A DNA stretch of 60,602 nt. Origin: a bacterium. Lineage in GTDB: Bacteria; Auribacterota; UBA3054. The notes under the pieces were generated by a model. That model saw nothing but the letters and a program-made list of their open reading frames with translations. It did no database searches and was not told the origin of the DNA. The translations under genes were made by a program, and so were the position numbers. Where the stretch lies: positions 91,049 through 151,650 of the forward strand of contig JAFYXV010000009.1 in assembly GCA_017557885.1 (NCBI GenBank), written 5' to 3'. Positions 22,661-54,900 of this stretch are shown in pieces. Numbering within the stretch: the first letter of the stretch is position 1; every line of letters starts with the position of its first letter.

Positions 22661-25600
22661 TCAGCGTTCCTTGCGCAGCGCGCAGAGAAGCAGAGCCACA
22701 AGAGCCAATCCCACGAAGGGTTCGGGAATGAAAGCCCAGCCCACGTAGCGTTCGCCGTACTGCGTCTCGGGATCAGTCTTGAACCAGGTGTTGGCGACGA
22801 AATTCGGCACTTCGTTGGTGTAGTCCGTGAAATCGATCTGTTGCCATATGTCGTCCAGTTCATAGGTCACGCCGATATCATAGTACTCGGCGCCGCCGGG
22901 ACCGCCGATATCGTAGAACTGGTTGTACTGTGAGAGCACCGCGTAATCGTCGTGCCCGTTCAGGATAATCGCTTCGCCGGTAATGAAGGCGCAGGCCCAT
23001 TTCGGTTCATGCTCGAAATCCTGATCCGGGATCTCGGCGAAGATGTTCGAGGTGCAGACCTGAGCTGCGCCATACCAATTGTCGGAGAAGTTGGAGCTGA
23101 TGGCGGTGCAGTAGCCGCCGTCGCAGTGCTGCTTCGTGAAGGTATTGGCGGTGATATAGACGTAGTTGGTGTTCGCCTTGTTGTCACGTTCGGGATATCC
23201 GTTGTGATAGATGCCTCTGGTAAAGCCCTGGAACAGGTTGTTGTTGATGGTGAGGCAATCCTTGTCGATAAGGCCGTTGTAGGTGATGCCGCAGTACCAG
23301 AAATGCTCCCAGTTGGTGACCTGGTTGGTGGTCACGTCATAGCATTCGCCGTCGAACATGCCGTAGAAATAGTTGTTGTCGATCTGGACGCCATTGGCGC
23401 CGTTGATGCCGATCAGCTCAGTCATGTTGGGCAAACTGGCGCCCACGCCGGTGGTGACGATGTTGGTGTCGGGCTTGGAACCGTCAAGGATGAAGTTGCT
23501 GAAGCGGACATGGTCCACGTTCTCCATCTTGATGAAGGGCGTGTCGTCCCAGACGTCGCCGCCGGTGCCCTTGTGCCACTTTTTGTCGCCGGGAGTAAGG
23601 AGCGGACGGTCGATCTCATTAACGAACTGGTCGAAAATGGCTACCGGCTTGTCGGTAGTCTCGCCTTTCACCCACAGGTAGGACTTCTTGGAGAGATCCA
23701 AGGTCCAATCCGTGGCGCTCTGAGAGTCGCCGGAATAGACCGCCACAGCAACGGACAGCGTGATCGGGCCTTCCTCCGCGGAGCCGCTGGGCACAGCTTC
23801 AAAAGCGTAGGCCATGGTCTTCCAGGCAGTCTCGGGAGAAGTGCCTTCGTTGTCGTCGTTGCCTTCGGGGCTCACGTAGTAGGTGTTGGCGTAGTTGCTG
23901 ACCGTGAAGGTCTCGCTGCTGCCGTCGTAGGAATTGTAAGCCATCGTGTAAACGACCTTGCCGGGGCGCGGGCATTCCTCGCCGATGCTGTAGTAGAAAG
24001 TCGTCGTCGTGCCGGCAGAGATCTCGCCCTTGGCCGGGCTGATGGTGGCGCCTTCCGTGTCGCTGGTGAACTCATAGACCAGACTGACGCTGCCTTCGTT
24101 GGTCACGTCAAAGGATTTGGTCGTGGCCTTCAACGTTATGTCCTTCGTCTTGCTGAAGACCGCGATCGGCCTCGGCGAATCTGCGGAGACGTTGATGGCG
24201 ATGGACTGTTCGCCCCAGGAAAGGGTGACCTGGCCGCTGACCGGGCCCTGAACTTTCGTGCGGTCGATATTGAGCGTTTTCTTGATTTCGGCGTTGGACG
24301 GGACAGTCACAGTCTCGTCAATAGCAAGCCATTCTTCCGTGCACTTGACGCTGATTTCCAGGTCATGAGCGGAAACGTTGTAAAGGCTGACTTCCACGCT
24401 TTCCTCCGTCTGGCCGAAATCAACGGTGGAGGGGGAAACATAGAGGTCCTGGGTGGGCATCTCGCCGATCCAGAGACGGCTGCCGGCCACGTTCTTGCCG
24501 GTCACCGGGTCGTTGCTCATCATGGAGCCGCCGAACAAAAGTTTGCCGTCTTCGGTTACGGCGCAAGCCGCATGATAGGCGGCCACGGGCAGCTTGGTGG
24601 AATGGACCACGACAGATCTCAAAACGGTGTTGACGATCTGGAAGGTGTCCAAGGGAACCAGATTGCCGGCTTCATCTTTGGTGCGGCCGCCAATGGCGTA
24701 GATGACGCCGTTATAGCTGACAACAGCCGGATCGCGCACCGGGATCTGCAGTTCCAGATCGCTGTCAACGAGCTCATACTTGTTGGTGGCGGTCTCCATG
24801 ACACGGATCTTGGTGGAGACGGAACTGTCGCCCAAAATGTAGATCTTGGAGCCCCAGGTGGAGATGCCGAAATACATCAGGTTGTCGGGATAAACTTTTT
24901 CATAAGCACGCCATTCGTCAGACTTGGTGTTGTAGGTCTGCATGCACATACCGTTGTCGCCCCAGAATCCGCCGCCCAAAACATAGGCGATGCCGTCGAT
25001 GCAGACCGCGCCGCCGCCGTACTGGGCCACATAGCCGCCGTTGTCGAAACCGGTAGCGCCGGAAGAGCCGGTCCAGGCGCCGTAGGGGCTGTCTGGATCG
25101 TTGTTAGGCTTTCTGCTGGGATTGTAGATGCTGAAGGTGCCGTCCCAGGAGGGATAGCCGCCGTGCATGAAGAAACTGGGCGTTCCCGATTCGTCGAAGT
25201 CCCAAAGGAAAGCCTGGTTGGCGCCGCAATAGACGCCGTCGCCGGCAACCGCTTCCTGGACCACCCATTCGTCGTCGGAAATGCGGGCGCCGCATTTGCC
25301 GGCTTCCATATTGACGTAGGTCGGAGGTCCGCTGCCGTCCCATTTGGAGGAATCCCAGGTGTCAGATGCCACGTCGTAGATGCTGAATTGGACGCTGCGG
25401 TTGTAGGAGAAAGCCTCGCCGAAGGTGTTGCTGGGCCAGCTGTAGCCGGGGTCGTTAAGATCGCCGCTGCCTTTGGTGCCGTCTTTCTTGTAGTTAACCC
25501 AGTCTTTCATGTTGGAAAAATACAGACCGAGACCGGAGAGGCCGATGTTGCAGCACTGACCGGAAGCGATCATGTATTTGCCGTTAAGGTAAGCGCCGGC

Positions 25601-25918
25601 GCCCATGAAAGTCGGCCAGTAGCCTGTCACTTCCTTGAAGGGGTCGTCGGTGGCCACGAACTGGACGTTGGTGGTGACGAGCTCGGCCTTTCTCCAGGTC
25701 GACCTGTTGAAAAGTTCGACCGTTCTGTTGGTCGGGCAGGGCACGGCGGTGTCGTGATACCAATCAGATTTGTCTTCGCGGGCTGATGGCCGGCGGGCGT
25801 CGTAGTATCTGAAGGGCCACCAGGAGGGGTTCTGGGCTTTCTCTGTCCAGATGTTGTCGTCAGCCATCAGCTGACCGAGGCAGGCGAAAGCCAGAAGGAA
25901 AAGCATAAAGCGTTTCAT
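22661..25918 (-). CDS. Large secreted Kelch/beta-helix protein with PEP-CTERM signal (copy A)
   Basis: A 1085-residue protein. It has a signal peptide (about 1-19), then an N-terminal half with Kelch-like motifs (YLNGKYMIASGQ, YVLGGGFWGDNG, IYAIGGRTKD, LLFGGSMMS), which suggest a beta-propeller. Next come two Ig/BACON-like beta domains (about 500-680) and a right-handed beta-helix region beginning YYVSPEGNDDNEGTSPETAWKT (about 685), which resembles surface polysaccharide-active folds. The C-terminus is a PEP-CTERM sorting signal: PEP (about 1065-1067), a hydrophobic helix and RKER. It should be exported and processed by an exosortase, none of which is encoded here. A tandem paralogue lies upstream. 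No catalytic residues can be named. Confidence 0.85.
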   Translation of the reverse strand: MKRFMLFLLAFACLGQLMADDNIWTEKAQNPSWWPFRYYDARRPSAREDKSDWYHDTAVPCPTNRTVELFNRSTWRKAELVTTNVQFVATDDPFKEVTGYWPTFMGAGAYLNGKYMIASGQCCNIGLSGLGLYFSNMKDWVNYKKDGTKGSGDLNDPGYSWPSNTFGEAFSYNRSVQFSIYDVASDTWDSSKWDGSGPPTYVNMEAGKCGARISDDEWVVQEAVAGDGVYCGANQAFLWDFDESGTPSFFMHGGYPSWDGTFSIYNPSRKPNNDPDSPYGAWTGSSGATGFDNGGYVAQYGGGAVCIDGIAYVLGGGFWGDNGMCMQTYNTKSDEWRAYEKVYPDNLMYFGISTWGSKIYILGDSSVSTKIRVMETATNKYELVDSDLELQIPVRDPAVVSYNGVIYAIGGRTKDEAGNLVPLDTFQIVNTVLRSVVVHSTKLPVAAYHAACAVTEDGKLLFGGSMMSNDPVTGKNVAGSRLWIGEMPTQDLYVSPSTVDFGQTEESVEVSLYNVSAHDLEISVKCTEEWLAIDETVTVPSNAEIKKTLNIDRTKVQGPVSGQVTLSWGEQSIAINVSADSPRPIAVFSKTKDITLKATTKSFDVTNEGSVSLVYEFTSDTEGATISPAKGEISAGTTTTFYYSIGEECPRPGKVVYTMAYNSYDGSSETFTVSNYANTYYVSPEGNDDNEGTSPETAWKTMAYAFEAVPSGSAEEGPITLSVAVAVYSGDSQSATDWTLDLSKKSYLWVKGETTDKPVAIFDQFVNEIDRPLLTPGDKKWHKGTGGDVWDDTPFIKMENVDHVRFSNFILDGSKPDTNIVTTGVGASLPNMTELIGINGANGVQIDNNYFYGMFDGECYDVTTNQVTNWEHFWYCGITYNGLIDKDCLTINNNLFQGFTRGIYHNGYPERDNKANTNYVYITANTFTKQHCDGGYCTAISSNFSDNWYGAAQVCTSNIFAEIPDQDFEHEPKWACAFITGEAIILNGHDDYAVLSQYNQFYDIGGPGGAEYYDIGVTYELDDIWQQIDFTDYTNEVPNFVANTWFKTDPETQYGERYVGWAFIPEPFVGLALVALLLCALRKER
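23853..24125 (-). repeat. Near-identical segment shared with copy B (27253-27525)
   Basis: About 270 bp that differ from the paralogous gene at only around ten positions by eye, including synonymous sites, while flanking parts of the two genes are clearly more diverged. It encodes the junction between the second Ig-like domain and the beta-helix. Confidence 0.75.
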
Positions 25919-26075: not shown

Positions 26076-29000
26076 TTACTTTCTTCTGAGCATGGCGAGA
26101 GCCAGGGCGATTATCGCCAAGCCGAAGACCGGCTCGGGAATGAAGGCCCAGCCAACTTTCCGTTCGCCGTACTCGGTATCGGGATCCGTCTTGAACCATG
26201 TTCCCACAAAGTTCGGCACTTCGTTGGTGTAGTCCGTGAAGTCGATCTGGTAGAAGATATCCTCCAGCTCGTAGGTCACGCCGGCGGTGTAGTAGGCGTC
26301 TCCGCCGGGACCGCCGATATCGTAGTACTGGTTGTACTGGGACAGCACCGCATAGTCGTCATGACCGACTAGGATCGTCGCTTCGCCGGTGGCGTAGGCG
26401 CAGGTCCAACTCGGTTCATATTCGTAATCCTGATCAGGGATCTCGGCGAAGATGTTCGAGGTGCAGACCTGAGCGGCGCCGTACCAGGTGTCCTGGAAGT
26501 TGGAGCTGATGGCCACGCAGACGCCTCCGTTGCTGTGCTGCTTCGTGAAGGTGTTGGCGGTGATATAAGCGCAGTTCGTGTTGGATCTGTCGTCTCTCGC
26601 AGGATAGCCGTTGTGGTAGATGCCTCTGGTGAATCCCTGGAAGAGGTTGTTGTTGATGGTGATGTCGTCGGGACCTATAACGCCGTGATAAGTAAGGCCG
26701 ATGTAGTAGAAATGCTCCCAGTTGGTGACCTGGTTGGTGGTCACGTCATAGCATTCGCCGTCGAACATGCCGTAGAAGTAGTTGTTGTCGATCTGGACGC
26801 CGTCGGCGTTGTGAATGCCTATCAGTTCCGTGATGTTGGGCAGACTGGCGCCCACGCCGACCGTCACGATGTTGGTGTCGGGCTTGGAACCGTCAAGGAT
26901 GAAATTGCTGAAACGGACATGGTCCACGTTCTCCATCTTGATGGCAGGCACGTCGTCCCAAACGTCATCGCCGGTATTTTTGTGCCATTTCTTGTCGCCG
27001 GGAGTAAGGAGCGGACGGTCAATCTCAGGAACGATCTGGTCGGTAACAGACACCGGCTTGTCAGTCGTCTCGCCCTTCACCCAGAGGTAAGACTTCTTGG
27101 AGAGATCCAAGGTCCAGTCGGTGGCGTGCTGGGAGTCGCCGGCGTAAACGGCCGTGGCGACGGACAGCGTGATCGATCCTTCGTCCGCGGAGCCGTTGGG
27201 AACGTTTTCAAAAGCGTAAGCCAAAGTCTTCCAGGCGGTCTCGGGAGAAGTGCCGTCGTTGTCGTCGCTGCCTTCGGGGCTCACGTAGTAGGTGTTGGCG
27301 TAGTTGCTGACCGTAAAGGTCTCGCTGCTGCCGTCGTAGGAATTGTAAGCCATCGTGTAAACGACCTTGCCGGGGCGCGGGCATTCCTCGCCGATGCTGT
27401 AGTAGAAGGTCGCGGTGGTGCCGGCAGAGATCTCGCCCTTGGCCGGGCTGATGGTGGCTCCTTCCGTGTCGCTGGTGAACTCATAGACCAGACTGACGCT
27501 GCCTTCGTTGGTCACGTCAAAGGATTTTGTCGTGGGCTTCAGGGTGATGTCCTTGGTCTTAGAGAAGGCCGGGATCGGCCTGGGCATATCCGCCGACACG
27601 TTCAAGGTCATGGACTCTTCGCCCCAAGCCAGGGCCAGCAGCCCGCTGACCGGGCCCTGAACATTCGTGCGGTCGATGGTCACGGCTTCCTTGATCTCTT
27701 TGTTGGCCGGGATGGTTACGTGCTTATCCACCGTGAGCCAGGATTCCGAGCAGGTGACGTGAACGTCCAGTTCATGAGCCGAGACGTTGTAGAGACTGAT
27801 CTCGATGGAGTCTTCCGTTTGTCCGTAATCGAGGGTGGAGGGAGAAACATAGAGGTCCTGGGTGGGCATCTCGCCGATCCAGAGGCGGCTGCCGGCCACG
27901 TCTTTGCCGGTCACCGGGTCTCTGCTCAGCATGGAACCGCCGAACAAAAGTTTGCCGTCTTCCGTCACCGCGCAGGAAGCGTAGTAAGCGGCGATAGGCA
28001 GCTTGGTGGAATGGACCACCGCGGACTTCAGGACCGTGTTGACGATCTGGAAAGTATCCAAGGGCTTGATCACAGTGTTCGTCTGACCATCTTCAACTAC
28101 CTGTACTCTTCCCTGGCCGCCGATGGCATAGATGACGCCGTTGTAGCCCACCACGGCGGGCGCCCTCACAGGAATCTGCAGTTCAAGGTCGCTGTCAACG
28201 AACTTGTAAACGTTGGTGGCGGTCTCCATCACACGGATCTTGGAGGAAACGGAGCTGTCGCCCAAGAGATAGATCTTGCTGCCCCAGGTGGCGATGCCGA
28301 AATCCAGAAGGCTTTGGGGATAGATGTTCTCGTAAACGGTCCACTGGTCGGTCTTGGGATTGTAGATCTGCATGTGCATAGCGCCGTCGGGTCCCCAGAA
28401 GCCGCCGCCCAAGACATAGGCGATGCCGTCGATGCAGACCGCGCCGCCGCCGTACTGAGCCTTGTTGCCGCTGCTGAAATCGGTGCAAAGGGAAGATCCG
28501 CTCCAGGCGCCGTAGGGGCTGTCGGGATCGTTCATGGGCTTCCTGCTGGGATTGTAGATCTGGAAGTTGCCGCTCCAGTTGGGATATCCGGCGTGAATGA
28601 AGAAGGAGGGCGTGCCGGATTCGTCGAAGTCGTAAAGGAAAGCCTGGTTTGAGCCGCAGCGGGCGCCGTCGCGCATGACCGCTTCCTGCACTCCCCATTC
28701 GTCGTTGGCGATACGATAGTCGCATTTGCCGGCTTCCATATTGACGAAGGTCGGAGGTCCGGAGCCGTCGTATTTGGAAGATTCCCAGGTGTCAGAGGCC
28801 ACGTCGTAGATGTGGAACTGGACGCTGCGGTTGAAGGAGAAAGCCTCGTCCGCATGGGAGACGGAGTTGCTGGGCCAGTAGTAGCCGTAGTCCTTCAGAT
28901 CGCCGGTCTTGGTGCCGTCTCTCACGAACTTGCAGTAGTTGTCCATGCCCGGGAAGGTCAGTTTTGTTTCCGCCTGTCTTAAGGCATAGTTGCACATCTG

Positions 29001-29360
29001 CCCGGCGGCGATCATGTATTTGCCGTCAAGATAGGCCGCGGCGCCGTAGAAGGTCGGCCAGTAGCCGGTCACTTCCTTGAAGGGGTCGTCGGTGGCCACC
29101 AGCTGGATGTTGGTGGAAACAAGCACCGCCTTTCTCCAAACACTGCCGTAAAAAGCGTCGACCGTTCTGTTGGTGGGGCAGGGCGGCTCCAGGTCGGCGT
29201 ACCATTCGAGCAGATCAGGCCTGCCCGAGGGGCGTTTGGGGTCGTAATGACGGTACGGCCACCAGGAAGGGTTCTGGGCTTTTTCGGTCCAGATCTCGTC
29301 AGCCAGGATAAGCTGGGAGGTCAGGACGAGCGCCAAAAGCGCGAAGAGGATGCGTTTCAT
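26076..29360 (-). CDS. Large secreted Kelch/beta-helix protein with PEP-CTERM signal (copy B)
   Basis: A 1094-residue paralogue of the gene at 22661, with the same order: signal peptide, Kelch-like propeller (AAYLDGKYMIAAGQ, YVLGGGFWGPDG, IYAIGGQGRV), Ig/BACON-like domains, beta-helix beginning YYVSPEGSDDNDGTSPETAWKT, and a PEP-CTERM tail (PEP about 1075-1077, helix, RRK). It differs from copy A by small insertions, including one after IYAIGGQ, and by substitutions along the helix. Both are exported surface proteins. Tandem duplication followed by gene conversion is inferred from patchy DNA identity. Function is unknown; glycan binding is a guess from the folds. Confidence 0.85.
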   Translation of the reverse strand: MKRILFALLALVLTSQLILADEIWTEKAQNPSWWPYRHYDPKRPSGRPDLLEWYADLEPPCPTNRTVDAFYGSVWRKAVLVSTNIQLVATDDPFKEVTGYWPTFYGAAAYLDGKYMIAAGQMCNYALRQAETKLTFPGMDNYCKFVRDGTKTGDLKDYGYYWPSNSVSHADEAFSFNRSVQFHIYDVASDTWESSKYDGSGPPTFVNMEAGKCDYRIANDEWGVQEAVMRDGARCGSNQAFLYDFDESGTPSFFIHAGYPNWSGNFQIYNPSRKPMNDPDSPYGAWSGSSLCTDFSSGNKAQYGGGAVCIDGIAYVLGGGFWGPDGAMHMQIYNPKTDQWTVYENIYPQSLLDFGIATWGSKIYLLGDSSVSSKIRVMETATNVYKFVDSDLELQIPVRAPAVVGYNGVIYAIGGQGRVQVVEDGQTNTVIKPLDTFQIVNTVLKSAVVHSTKLPIAAYYASCAVTEDGKLLFGGSMLSRDPVTGKDVAGSRLWIGEMPTQDLYVSPSTLDYGQTEDSIEISLYNVSAHELDVHVTCSESWLTVDKHVTIPANKEIKEAVTIDRTNVQGPVSGLLALAWGEESMTLNVSADMPRPIPAFSKTKDITLKPTTKSFDVTNEGSVSLVYEFTSDTEGATISPAKGEISAGTTATFYYSIGEECPRPGKVVYTMAYNSYDGSSETFTVSNYANTYYVSPEGSDDNDGTSPETAWKTLAYAFENVPNGSADEGSITLSVATAVYAGDSQHATDWTLDLSKKSYLWVKGETTDKPVSVTDQIVPEIDRPLLTPGDKKWHKNTGDDVWDDVPAIKMENVDHVRFSNFILDGSKPDTNIVTVGVGASLPNITELIGIHNADGVQIDNNYFYGMFDGECYDVTTNQVTNWEHFYYIGLTYHGVIGPDDITINNNLFQGFTRGIYHNGYPARDDRSNTNCAYITANTFTKQHSNGGVCVAISSNFQDTWYGAAQVCTSNIFAEIPDQDYEYEPSWTCAYATGEATILVGHDDYAVLSQYNQYYDIGGPGGDAYYTAGVTYELEDIFYQIDFTDYTNEVPNFVGTWFKTDPDTEYGERKVGWAFIPEPVFGLAIIALALAMLRRK
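27253..27525 (-). repeat. Near-identical segment shared with copy A (23853-24125)
   Basis: The partner of the conserved DNA block in the paralogous gene. Confidence 0.75.
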
Positions 29361-50254: not shown

Positions 50255-52825
50255 TCATCTGCCTCTGTAGCTTGTGGAAGCCGTGGCAGATCCAAGAGAC
50301 GTCGAGCCGCAATAGACTGTGTAGCTGCTGCCGACGCTTAATTCCGGAAGCGAGATCAGAGCATTTGATCCTCTGCTGCCGCCGGGTCCGCCGCCTCCCG
50401 GCCAACCGCCGCCTCCGCCACTGTTGCCAGCATAATTGCTGGGAACGCTGAAAGTGTAAAGCTCGGTGCTGCCGCTTTTCACGGTGAGCGTTGAGCCGGC
50501 CGTCACGCTGCCGGAAACGTCGATGACCGCCTGAGAGCCCGTCGTCGCCGTGACGGAGTTGTTGCCGCCGCCAAGGCCTAGGACAGTCCCGCCCGTAATA
50601 TACAGGGCGTAACGTTCCGCGGCGTCGAGCCCGCATTCCGGGCTTCTGTAACCGCAGGCTATGACAATTCCTCCGCTGATATGCAGATCGCCGTTCGCAT
50701 CAACGCCGTCGTTGTTAGCCGACACGGTCGTTATGGTTCCGCCTTTTATGTACATGTCGCCGGCGGAATTCAAACAGTCGTCGTAAGTGCTGGCCGTTAC
50801 CGTTCCGCCCGATATGGTCATTATTTTTTTGCTCTCAATTCCCTCGCCGTTGTGGCCGGTGGTCGTTACGTTTATGGTTCCGCCCAGGATATCGACGTTC
50901 CCGTCCACTTTAATGCCTTTGGGCGAGGAGGTGTAAGCGTCGTCTATTCTTTCCGTGTCGCCGGTGTAGTTGGTGTTCTCGGTCGTACCGTTATTGTAAT
51001 AGAGTCCGCCCGTAGTGCTGATCGTCATATTGCAGTTAGTAACGACAAGATCACCGTCCACGTTGATGCCTTTGCCGCCTGAGCCGGTAGCCGCAAGCGT
51101 AAAGTCGCCGCCGTAGATCTTAAGGTCGCCGTCGCATTTTATGGCATCGCAGGCCGTGGCGGAAACATTGTTCGTGTCGCTTTCGTCCCACATGCCCTTG
51201 CCGGCCGTTGAGATCTCAAACGTTCCTCCGGAGATAGTCATGTCTCCGCCGCTTTTCATAGCCTTGGCGGCGGTGGCGGTGGAAGAGCATACGATCTTTA
51301 CGGTCGTATCGTTGCCCAAGTCATCGGATACCGTCATGGCGTCGTCGCACTTCAGGCCTTTGACGTCTATGGCCGTCACGTTCAAGGTTAGCTTCCCGCC
51401 TCTTAGGAACATTTGACCGTCGAATTCTTCGTCCTCCTCGTTCGCCTCGACCTGGATACAGTCGTCGCTGGCGGAAAGCACCGTAACGCTTCCGTTCTTC
51501 ATGTCGAAATACTGGCCGATGTGCAGCCCGTCCCCCAAGGCGTCGTTGACGATTATGCTTCCGGCGAAGGTCTTCTTAAGTTCCAAGTATTCCCCGCACT
51601 TCAGGGCGTGTTTGGTGTTGCCGGTCACATAGATCGTTCCGGAACCTTTCACCTCCGCATGCCCCTTTATTATGAAGCAGCCCTTCTGTTTGCCGTTGCT
51701 GCAATCAGTGAAAGTGTTAGTTCCGTTCACGGTAAGGTTGATCCTTTTTCCGTTGGCAATGTTAAACGCCGCGCCGGAAGGATTGTTCAGAGAAAGGTCC
51801 GTTATGGTGAAAGTCGATTTGAAAGAACCGGAGACCAGGAATTCCCCGTCCTCCGAAGAACCGGAGAGGAAGTAGGAGATCTCCCCGCAGGTGTTGGTGC
51901 CAACTTTTTCGCTTTGGGTAAGAGTCACATGAGCGCCGCTTATAGAAGCGCTGACGTAGTTCGTAATGTTGTCGGCGATCGAGACAGTCGCGGTGTCTCC
52001 CTCGTAAACGACATAGACCGTGTTGTCGTCCTGCCCGTTATCGAATTTCTCTTCCAAAGAGACCATCACTTTGAGATCTTCAAACTTTCCCTCAGGGAAA
52101 TCAGCTGACGCGTCCCAGATCGCGCGAAAAGCGCCGTTGCCAGTGATCGTCCCGTCTGCCCCCTCTCCGGACAAAGTCGTCAGCGCGAAAGCCTCGCCGT
52201 CCCCTTCCTTCCCATAGAAAGCGACCGCATATTCCTGAGCATCCTTTCCGCCTTCCACGACGTAGTCGATGTCAACTTTGCCTTCCCAGGGCGCGCGGGA
52301 TCTGATCTCCACGCTCTTCAAAACTTCCGCCCTGGCGCTCAAAGCAAAAACGGCGGCAAGCAAAGGAAGACAGATTTTTTTCCTTTTCCAAAAAAGGAAA
52401 GCGAACACCGCCAAGGCCAATAATCCCGCCATGGGTTCCGGCACAAGCGTGACCGTTATGGTCTTGGTGTCGAGCGTGTCGTTGCCGCTTTCGATCACGT
52501 GCGAAAGCGTATAGATCTCATCCAGGGAAAAATCATCGCTTTTGTCCGTCAAATAATCCCAGCAGAAATAGCCTTCCGCGCCGTCCTCGGACTCAGAGAA
52601 AATCGTCGCCTCGGCAAGGCTGGCGGACTGGGCTGTCACGCGGCAGGTTCTGTTTGAACCGTCAACCCACTTGGCGCTGTAGGGAAGCTCGTCGGAAACT
52701 TGCAGTTCGAAGGTCGCGCCGATTGACGCGCAATCAAGAACGATGCCCTCCGACCAAACTTCCTCTGCTTCCGCAAAACACAATGCGCAAAGCAATACGA
52801 AAAAAAGCCCAAAAATGTTTTTCAT
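50255..52825 (-). CDS. Two-product PEP-CTERM / beta-helix carbohydrate-binding polyprotein
   Basis: An 856-residue ORF with an odd order. Signal peptide (about 1-19), a small Ig-like domain (about 25-127) and a PEP-CTERM sorting signal inside the protein (PEP at 129-131, hydrophobic helix 132-146, KRKK 147-150). Directly after it comes a second signal-peptide-like helix (151-166, ending in Ala-Arg-Ala), then a second beta domain (about 167-270) and a long beta-helix of repeated short strands rich in Gly/Asp/Ser/Thr (about 270-780), like Cthe_2159-type carbohydrate-binding proteins. A Gly/Pro-rich linker (GGGGGWPGGGGPGG) and a terminal beta strand follow. The ATG at 52825 is preferred because the longer frame reads through the ABC gene. 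It starts 5 nt after the ABC exporter stop. Confidence 0.8.
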   Translation of the reverse strand: MKNIFGLFFVLLCALCFAEAEEVWSEGIVLDCASIGATFELQVSDELPYSAKWVDGSNRTCRVTAQSASLAEATIFSESEDGAEGYFCWDYLTDKSDDFSLDEIYTLSHVIESGNDTLDTKTITVTLVPEPMAGLLALAVFAFLFWKRKKICLPLLAAVFALSARAEVLKSVEIRSRAPWEGKVDIDYVVEGGKDAQEYAVAFYGKEGDGEAFALTTLSGEGADGTITGNGAFRAIWDASADFPEGKFEDLKVMVSLEEKFDNGQDDNTVYVVYEGDTATVSIADNITNYVSASISGAHVTLTQSEKVGTNTCGEISYFLSGSSEDGEFLVSGSFKSTFTITDLSLNNPSGAAFNIANGKRINLTVNGTNTFTDCSNGKQKGCFIIKGHAEVKGSGTIYVTGNTKHALKCGEYLELKKTFAGSIIVNDALGDGLHIGQYFDMKNGSVTVLSASDDCIQVEANEEDEEFDGQMFLRGGKLTLNVTAIDVKGLKCDDAMTVSDDLGNDTTVKIVCSSTATAAKAMKSGGDMTISGGTFEISTAGKGMWDESDTNNVSATACDAIKCDGDLKIYGGDFTLAATGSGGKGINVDGDLVVTNCNMTISTTGGLYYNNGTTENTNYTGDTERIDDAYTSSPKGIKVDGNVDILGGTINVTTTGHNGEGIESKKIMTISGGTVTASTYDDCLNSAGDMYIKGGTITTVSANNDGVDANGDLHISGGIVIACGYRSPECGLDAAERYALYITGGTVLGLGGGNNSVTATTGSQAVIDVSGSVTAGSTLTVKSGSTELYTFSVPSNYAGNSGGGGGWPGGGGPGGSRGSNALISLPELSVGSSYTVYCGSTSLGSATASTSYRGR

Positions 52826-52830
52826 GTTGC

Positions 52831-54900
52831 TTATATTCTTCTGCTGAACTGCAGGAGATAAAGGTCGTAGTAGGCGCCCTTCCTGGCCATCAGTTCGGCG
52901 TGGCTGCCTCTTTCTATGATCTTGCCGTCGTCCAGGACGAAGATCTCGTCCACCTTGTGGATGGTGGAGAGGCGGTGGGCCACGATCATGCTTGTTCTTC
53001 CGATCATCAGCTTGTCGATGGCGTCCTGGATAAGGTGCTCGGTGGCGGGATCCACGTTGCTGGTGGCTTCGTCGAGGATCAGGATCCTCGGGTCGTGGGC
53101 TAAGGCGCGGGCAAAACAAAGCAACTGCTTTTCGCCGGCGGACAAAGTGGCGCCGCGCTCGGCCATCACTTCGTCATAGCCGTGAGGAAGCTTCTCGATG
53201 AACTGGTTGGCGCAGACCGTCTCGGCGGCCTTGATAGCCTTATCCCTGGTGATGGAGGGGTCGCCAAGGGCGATGTTCTCATAGATGGAGCGGCTGAAGA
53301 CGAAAGTGCCCTGCAATACTATGGAGATGTGCTTGCGCAGTTCCTCGTTGGACCATTCCTTTACATCGACGCCGTCCAGAAGGACTCTGCCCTTGTTGGC
53401 GTCGTAGAAGCGGCAGACCAGGTTTATGAGCGAGGATTTGCCGGCGCCGGTGGGGCCGACGATAGCGATGCTCTTGCCCGGCTCGATCTTGAAGGAAACG
53501 TCTTTCAGGACCTGCTCGTTTTCTATGTAGGAGAAATCGACGTTTTGGAATTCCACTTCGCCTTTCGGTTCGGGAACGATCACGGGATCCTCCGGCTGGG
53601 CCACTTCGTTCTTGGTGTCCAATAGTGTGAAGATGCGCTCCGAAGCAGCCAGGCTGCTCTGCAGCTGCGTGATCTGGTTGCTGATCTGCATCAGGGGATT
53701 GCAGAGGTGGCCGAAATATGTGATGAAGGCCATCAAAGAACCGAGAGTAAGGTCACCGTTCAATACGCAGATGCCGCCGTAGAGAATGATGAGCGCCGTG
53801 CCGAAATGCCGGATAAGGTCGAGGATCGGGCCGAAGACGCCCATGTAGATGACATTTTTGAAACCGGCCTTGTAGTAGGAGGCGTTCACTTCCGCGAACT
53901 CTTCCCTTCTGCGCTTCTGCTGGTTGAAGCTTTGGATCATCTTGATGCCGGAGAATTCCTCCGTCAGGACGCCGTTGATCTTAGCCAGGATCCTTCTCAA
54001 TTCACGGTGAACTTTCCTGACCACGATGCGGAAAATTATCGTGATGACGACGCAGAAAGGCAATACCGTCATGGAGATCAGCGTCAGCTTCCAGTTGATG
54101 TACAGGACGATGATGAGGGAGCCGATGAACATGCCGGCGCTTGCAAGCATCTGGACCGCCACGGTGGAGAGCATGGAGTTGATGGCTTCGATATCGTTGG
54201 TCACCCTTGTCACGAGTTTGCCGATGGGAGTCCTGTTGTACAGGGAAACGGAAAGGCTCTGGAGATGTTTGAAGAGCGCCATTCTGAGAGCGTACATCGT
54301 GCGCTGGCTGGCTATTTCAAGCGTGAGGCGGTGGAAATAGTCGGCGACGGCATGAAGGGCAAGGACTATGAGGAAGAGGAAGAACATCCTCTTCAAGCCC
54401 GTTATGTCGGTGCCTCTGATCTTCGTCAGGAGCGTGGGATCGATGTCCGCGAATTCCTTGTCGGGAACGAACCAGTTGTCGCCGTAAACGAAGCCGTGGG
54501 TGCCGTCGTAGTTTTCCTTCCTGAAGATGTAGTGGTTCTCGCCTTTGTCTTTCAGGGAATCGCTGATGTCCTTGTTCTTCTCGAGGAAGCTCGTGGGCAC
54601 GGCGGCCGTGTCGTCGCCGGCGGGAATGGCAACTTCCTTGAGCTTGGGATATTTCTCCAAGGCTTCATGGTCCGAACTTATGAAAGTGTAGAGAGGAACA
54701 AGATAGTTGTCTATGCTCTTCCTGTAGATGTTCGGCGTGATGAGCTGAGTGGCGGAGCTGAGCGCCAGGAAAAAGAGCGCCAGGAAAATGAAAAGCTTCT
54801 GGGGCGCCGCGTAACCCAGGAAGCGCCTGATGTAGCTTATGTCAAAGCCGCTCTTATACTGATCTTCCGAATCGAAATCGTGATGGTGGCTGTGACTCAT
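52831..54900 (-). CDS. ABC exporter half-transporter, MdlB-like (consensus Walker B)
   Basis: A 689-residue half-transporter with six transmembrane helices and a C-terminal ATPase. It is long because about 100 soluble residues (about 65-165) are inserted between helices 1 and 2. ATPase motifs are IVGPTGAGKSS (Walker A), LSAGEKQ (signature, not the usual LSGGQ), ILILDEATS (Walker B with catalytic Glu) and MIVAHRLST (switch His). It overlaps its partner by 4 bp, so the two should form a heterodimer as in MdlAB/TmrAB. A His-rich natural N-terminus (MSHSHHHD) is present. Substrate unknown. Confidence 0.9.
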   Translation of the reverse strand: MSHSHHHDFDSEDQYKSGFDISYIRRFLGYAAPQKLFIFLALFFLALSSATQLITPNIYRKSIDNYLVPLYTFISSDHEALEKYPKLKEVAIPAGDDTAAVPTSFLEKNKDISDSLKDKGENHYIFRKENYDGTHGFVYGDNWFVPDKEFADIDPTLLTKIRGTDITGLKRMFFLFLIVLALHAVADYFHRLTLEIASQRTMYALRMALFKHLQSLSVSLYNRTPIGKLVTRVTNDIEAINSMLSTVAVQMLASAGMFIGSLIIVLYINWKLTLISMTVLPFCVVITIIFRIVVRKVHRELRRILAKINGVLTEEFSGIKMIQSFNQQKRRREEFAEVNASYYKAGFKNVIYMGVFGPILDLIRHFGTALIILYGGICVLNGDLTLGSLMAFITYFGHLCNPLMQISNQITQLQSSLAASERIFTLLDTKNEVAQPEDPVIVPEPKGEVEFQNVDFSYIENEQVLKDVSFKIEPGKSIAIVGPTGAGKSSLINLVCRFYDANKGRVLLDGVDVKEWSNEELRKHISIVLQGTFVFSRSIYENIALGDPSITRDKAIKAAETVCANQFIEKLPHGYDEVMAERGATLSAGEKQLLCFARALAHDPRILILDEATSNVDPATEHLIQDAIDKLMIGRTSMIVAHRLSTIHKVDEIFVLDDGKIIERGSHAELMARKGAYYDLYLLQFSRRI

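Follow-up and report, generated by a model that had tools for sequence, protein, structure and literature searches.

The window, a stretch of 60,602 nucleotides, encodes on its reverse strand an ORF in which a PEP-CTERM sorting signal and a predicted second signal peptide lie back to back in the interior of the protein (Table 1). The ORF starts five bases past an ABC exporter gene, and the same exporter is its neighbor in the orthologous loci of three other species. On translation, residues 129-150 read PEPMAGLLALAVFAFLFWKRKK, which confirms, with exact coordinates, the PEP motif, hydrophobic helix, and KRKK reported in the initial annotation. The signal-peptide-like segment described directly after KRKK is also borne out by the translation; its Ala-Arg-Ala occupies residues 164-166, and the predicted mature B runs from E167. 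The beta-helix protein proposed to lie behind this second signal is recognized by Pfam as a Cthe_2159 domain.

Table 1. Features of the fused precursor ORF and its upstream neighbor, in window coordinates
Feature	Position	Strand	Basis
Fused A-B precursor ORF, 856 aa, ATG start, no internal stop	50255..52825	(-)	Translation
First (N-terminal) signal peptide, residues 1-19, MKNIFGLFFVLLCALCFAE	52769..52825	(-)	Sequence; predicted, cut site approximate
Domain A, residues 23-127, Ig/FnIII-like beta sandwich	52445..52759	(-)	AlphaFold2 and fold comparison
PEP motif, residues 129-131	52433..52441	(-)	Invariant in aligned members and fused ORFs; dN/dS
PEP-CTERM hydrophobic helix, residues 132-146	52388..52432	(-)	Sequence; helix also in AlphaFold2 model
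KRKK, residues 147-150	52376..52387	(-)	PEP-CTERM basic tail, doubling as n-region of second signal peptide
Second signal peptide, residues 151-166, ICLPLLAAVFALSARA	52328..52375	(-)	Predicted signal peptidase I site between Ala-Arg-Ala and Glu
Domain B, residues 167-262, second Ig-like domain; start of predicted second product	52040..52327	(-)	Alignment, model
Cthe_2159 carbohydrate-binding beta-helix, residues 310-545	51191..51898	(-)	Pfam PF14262, E 2.5e-43
ABC exporter gene directly upstream	52831..54900	(-)	Same neighbor in orthologous loci L027-L029

The signal and the modeled fold

The window protein has the PEP motif, hydrophobic helix, and basic cluster that define a PEP-CTERM signal. 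The signal does not sit at the extreme C-terminus, however; 706 residues follow KRKK, and we therefore do not class the window protein as an ordinary PEP-CTERM protein. Known PEP-CTERM signals lie near the extreme C-terminus, and 87% of them are followed by fewer than ten further residues (PMC1569441). In a standard HMM search, neither TIGR02595 nor PF07589 reached its curated cut-off with the window protein, and the VPDSG-CTERM model scored 12.4-12.5 bits, below its cut-off; a terminal PEP-CTERM protein of the same genome reached 21.4 bits with TIGR02595. The signal in the window protein is thus recognizable by eye but not by these HMMs. The second helix, for its part, has the hallmarks of a signal peptide for signal peptidase I, namely a basic n-region, a short hydrophobic core, and small residues at -3 and -1.

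AlphaFold2 predicts a pair of Ig-like sandwiches connected by a helix (132-146) and a low-confidence second segment, with pLDDT in domain A mostly 90 or more. The best solved folds for domain A are FnIII and Ig domains, at a Z score of about 7 over about 80 residues, a match that assigns a fold class only. A fold search with the AlphaFold models placed them in the broad Ig/FnIII class and returned no specific relative of either A or B, which says nothing on the novelty of the fold. Both of our AlphaFold models have a pTM of 0.76-0.79, values with which packing of A against B would be consistent.

Each of the eight genomes of the genus that we examined, except G005, encodes one PF09721 exosortase. 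The window genome has a single copy (L143:7843-9918, minus strand; 691 aa; PF09721 E 9.8e-37), with an EpsI-like C-terminal part in the same ORF. Its motifs PCSGLQ, NNSLRI, and FHEYPG presumably mark the Cys, Arg, and His positions of the exosortase family. The closest NCBIfam types are XrtD and XrtW, all scoring below their own cut-offs.

Distribution and cargo of the module

The full module consists of a signal peptide, Ig-like domain A, the PEP-CTERM signal, a second signal peptide, and Ig-like domain B. Counting by HMM in fetched loci and in profile searches of related genomes, we find it on 93 unique fused ORFs in eight genomes of the same genus, with an exact PEP between A and B in every one (93/93). 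Besides these there are 27 split A/B pairs and 30 B domains that have no A next to them; of this last group, some are second B domains or are cut at contig ends. Both arrangements that the initial annotation had suggested looking for in related genomes, the same order and a division into two ORFs, are therefore present. All sequences are metagenome assemblies of uncultured bacteria, and the named records come from rumen, reticulum, and omasum. The N-terminal 260 residues, internal PEP-CTERM included, recur in many copies in each of the eight genomes, and the same query found no match outside the genus in a search of related genomes. A motif scan located 92 internal PEP-CTERM signals, nearly all of them 126-142 residues after the first ATG; in a few of the ORFs, the start is cut off or uncertain.

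In the window genome, full internal hairpins account for 13 of about 85 PEP-CTERM-like signals, the total being estimated from listed matches, and dozens of ordinary C-terminal PEP-CTERM proteins are also present. Two large neighboring proteins in the window itself (22664-25918 and 26079-29360, both on the minus strand) have such ordinary C-terminal signals together with BACON/Kelch-like matches. A further locus, L144:465-2811, holds three small PEP-CTERM genes in tandem with a similar layout.

The cargo that follows domain B is mostly FGE-sulfatase (SUMF1)-like, that is, sulfatase-modifying-factor-like, with GH127 or Cthe_2159 in single cases. These C-terminal domains resemble those of secreted FGE-sulfatase (SUMF1)-like and Cthe_2159 proteins. 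The Cthe_2159 beta-helix part (window 50255-52040, minus strand; L030-L086) has close relatives of up to 60% identity in rumen Bacteroidales, and this similarity suggests horizontal exchange in the rumen. The Bacteroidales proteins match the beta-helix part only, not the module of A and PEP-CTERM.

Beyond the genus, three other families of the order have unrelated fused pairs built in the same way (L311, L312, L299, L328, and L300). In L311 (G011), a short PEP-CTERM unit stands ahead of an FGE-sulfatase protein, and in L312 (G014) and L299 (G010), such a unit precedes a domain with the motif NYQG (NYQG...FKFA). In the fused gene L328 (G011), likewise outside the genus, VPEC replaces PEP. L300 (G013; 897-2661) combines an internal PEP-CTERM with a possible signal peptide ending in DVHA and a different second protein. 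L326 and L327 encode the NYQG domain as a free protein. Among the NYQG...FKFA proteins as a whole (L312, L299, L328, L326, L327, and L325), some families of the order have the domain fused after a PEP-CTERM unit and others have it free. The full A-B module had no match outside the order in the phylum's other genomes searched, and a 50-position hairpin profile, which divergent hairpins could escape, had no full-length match in 21 genomes from elsewhere in the phylum.

Selection on the hairpin and its natural variants

An ORF of this kind could be a recent accidental fusion or an assembly artefact without function. The orthologue in a second species' assembly (L002 of G007, 90% identity) is the same ORF, in the same length class and uninterrupted, and together with the 93 family members it leads us to reject an assembly error or frameshift. 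Sequence constraint points in the same direction. In an alignment of 52 members with a mean column identity of ~40%, P129, E130, and P131 are invariant and A166 (-1) is nearly so; A164 (-3) is nearly invariant among the 13 members of the window genome. Across 120 orthologue pairs, the PEP motif with its four upstream residues is the most constrained element (dN/dS 0.05), compared with 0.22 for the PEP helix, 0.18 for the loop, 0.20 for domain A, and 0.19 for domain B. The core of the second helix reaches 0.37, against 0.34 for the first signal peptide, and its -4 to -1 positions, the A-x-A region, fall to 0.18. With a variable core and a preserved cleavage region, the second helix thus evolves like a signal peptide. 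By these comparisons, both internal signals are under purifying selection.

An A-x-A lies in the expected cut window of 41 of 53 non-redundant members; 2000 shuffles gave a mean of 13.7 and a maximum of 24. Because of this enrichment and the PEP in 93/93 fused members, we take the internal signal to be beyond chance, with the proviso that family members are related and such counts are not independent events. A clean A-x-A is missing from some second signal peptides, as in L194, which has GGRIEP, and in beta-helix paralogues, which end in SLLA. Spacing is uniform across the 93 members, with 40.4 +/- 1.3 residues from PEP to mature B and a mean loop net charge of +3.7.

This very regular hairpin length, together with model values that agree with A-B packing, could also be explained by an uncut two-domain surface protein, in which the hairpin would be a permanent membrane anchor and A and B would both remain outside, held together. 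We consider this main rival explanation unlikely. A permanent anchor needs neither PEP nor A-x-A, yet selection keeps both, and the second core evolves as fast as that of an ordinary signal peptide. The same pair of domains is moreover encoded by separate genes at 27 loci, and B is free in two further loci described below.

A different possibility is that signal peptidase I alone acts, releasing B and leaving A anchored by a PEP helix that is no substrate for exosortase. Haft et al. (2006) proposed that copies of PEP-CTERM lying far from the C-terminus may lack function, since they are more variable (PMC1569441). The fused family shows the opposite, as its internal PEP does not vary, being present in 93/93 members under the strong constraint noted above. 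After a signal peptidase cut, moreover, the PEP helix would lie within about 37 residues of the new C-terminus. We accordingly give a single-protease scheme only a small chance of being correct.

The loci at which A and B are separate genes are informative as to origin. In many of these 27 loci, the stop of A and the start of B are a few bases apart or overlap as ATGA (L203, L152, and L176), and elsewhere B starts some 15-30 bases downstream. In L137 (2780-2810), the basic-tail codons include AGGAGG (AGGAGGAGA) and resemble a Shine-Dalgarno sequence for B. A tree of B domains needs seven changes between the fused and unfused states, of which at least five are forced by starred branches, and fusion or fission has therefore happened repeatedly. 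The fused form likely arose, as far as these sequences indicate, from two translationally coupled genes by loss of a stop codon. Stop-codon loss, which the initial annotation had offered as the simpler alternative to a two-product ORF, thus holds up as the likely evolutionary origin of each fusion but not as an accident: the 93 fused ORFs come from eight genomes assembled independently, the B tree has several clades of fused members, and both signals are under purifying selection. Accidental fusion is thereby refuted for the family, and we regard it as wholly improbable.

Split loci also raise the question of whether B could be translated separately from a start inside the hairpin, as a nested gene whose fusion to A would be merely apparent. 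The orthologue in G007 has an ATG after KRKI, and basic-tail codons can act as a Shine-Dalgarno sequence where the genes are split. In only 7/93 fused ORFs, however, does the hairpin contain an ATG with a Shine-Dalgarno-like sequence, and in 30/93 it contains no ATG, GTG, or TTG at all. On these counts an internal start for B is disfavored, and we judge it highly unlikely.

In two orthologous loci, L028 (G001) and L029 (G003), domain A is missing, the same ABC gene lies upstream, and the shared part is about 92% identical. The encoded proteins start with MKNIFLIFASLLSAVFVLSARA or MKKLFLLFGLLLAVIFALSGRA, each followed directly by EVLKS. Judged from sequence, the segment buried in the window protein is the C-terminal half of their N-terminal signal peptide, which seems to join the first half of signal peptide 1 to the second half of signal peptide 2. 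The hexamer TTGCTT is common to the first and second signal-peptide segments of the window gene and also lies at the joint in L028 (L028:300-420, L029:200-320), consistent with an in-frame deletion from one segment to the other. Loss of A is likelier here than gain, because A is present in sister paralogues. The B tree separates the G001 and G003 copies and would ask for two such losses; recombination is possible. Homologues whose second helix clearly was no signal peptide would have spoken against the two-product idea, and L028 and L029 go the other way, using it as part of an N-terminal signal peptide. In the split loci, too, this helix stands as the N-terminal signal peptide of the separate B gene.

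A candidate secretory polyprotein

Taken together, these observations make it probable that the ORF encodes a secretory polyprotein with a stop-transfer/signal hairpin that is cut by both exosortase and signal peptidase I, a scheme in which we infer the cleavages, their order, the topology, and the fates of A and B. The first signal peptide would export domain A, and the PEP-CTERM helix would then stop transfer, leaving the KRKK loop on the cytoplasmic side. Acting as a genuine signal peptide, the second helix would restart export and deliver domain B with the beta-helix. Signal peptidase I would cut after Ala-Arg-Ala and release the second protein, and the genome's single exosortase would cut at PEP and pass the Ig-like product A to a surface or polysaccharide anchor. 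A peptide of about 37 residues would be left in the membrane after both cuts. The arrangement would have come from fusion of two translationally coupled genes and is maintained in a large gene family. The earlier proposal of two products, with the KRKK loop facing the cytoplasm, thus stands as the best reading of the sequence evidence.

The predicted polyprotein shares features with several known systems. Like the PEP-CTERM/exosortase (EpsH) sorting systems (TIGR02595/PF07589), it has a PEP motif, a helix, a basic cluster, and an N-terminal signal peptide, in a genome with an exosortase-EpsI gene. Unlike in those systems, the signal occupies residues 129-150 of an 856-residue protein, and a second signal peptide and another protein come after it. 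The FbcH protein of Bradyrhizobium is a cytochrome b/c1 polyprotein in which one ORF encodes two exported functional units and an internal signal peptide is cut by signal peptidase. The present ORF is similar in placing an internal signal peptide between two exported units, as read here from sequence and model, with export predicted. FbcH differs in having no sorting signal and in being a single conserved gene; the present design has an exosortase-type signal at the end of its upstream unit and is repeated in many genes whose cargo varies. Some viral polyproteins also place a stop-transfer helix and a signal helix between two exported domains. The helix pair is the same; the difference is that the present one belongs to bacteria and would be cut by an exosortase on one of its sides. 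In the open-access literature searched, no paper came to light that describes an internal PEP-CTERM/signal-peptide hairpin as a conserved module. FbcH already provides an example of a bacterial polyprotein with an internal signal peptide, and the conserved PEP-CTERM/signal-peptide hairpin module would be the new part.

We see about an even chance that this arrangement represents a general strategy, in which a reusable hairpin of sorting signal and signal peptide would yield, in a 1:1 ratio, an Ig-like partner anchored at the surface and a free enzyme or binder, from more than ten genes per genome, and would have evolved several times in one order. The internal copies, numerous, PEP-invariant, and strongly selected, turn the assumption that an exosortase substrate helix is necessarily C-terminal into a testable question. 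If the two-cut model is true, the annotation as a single protein is wrong for about 13 genes in the window genome, and bacteria own a reusable secretory polyprotein design for stoichiometric co-export.
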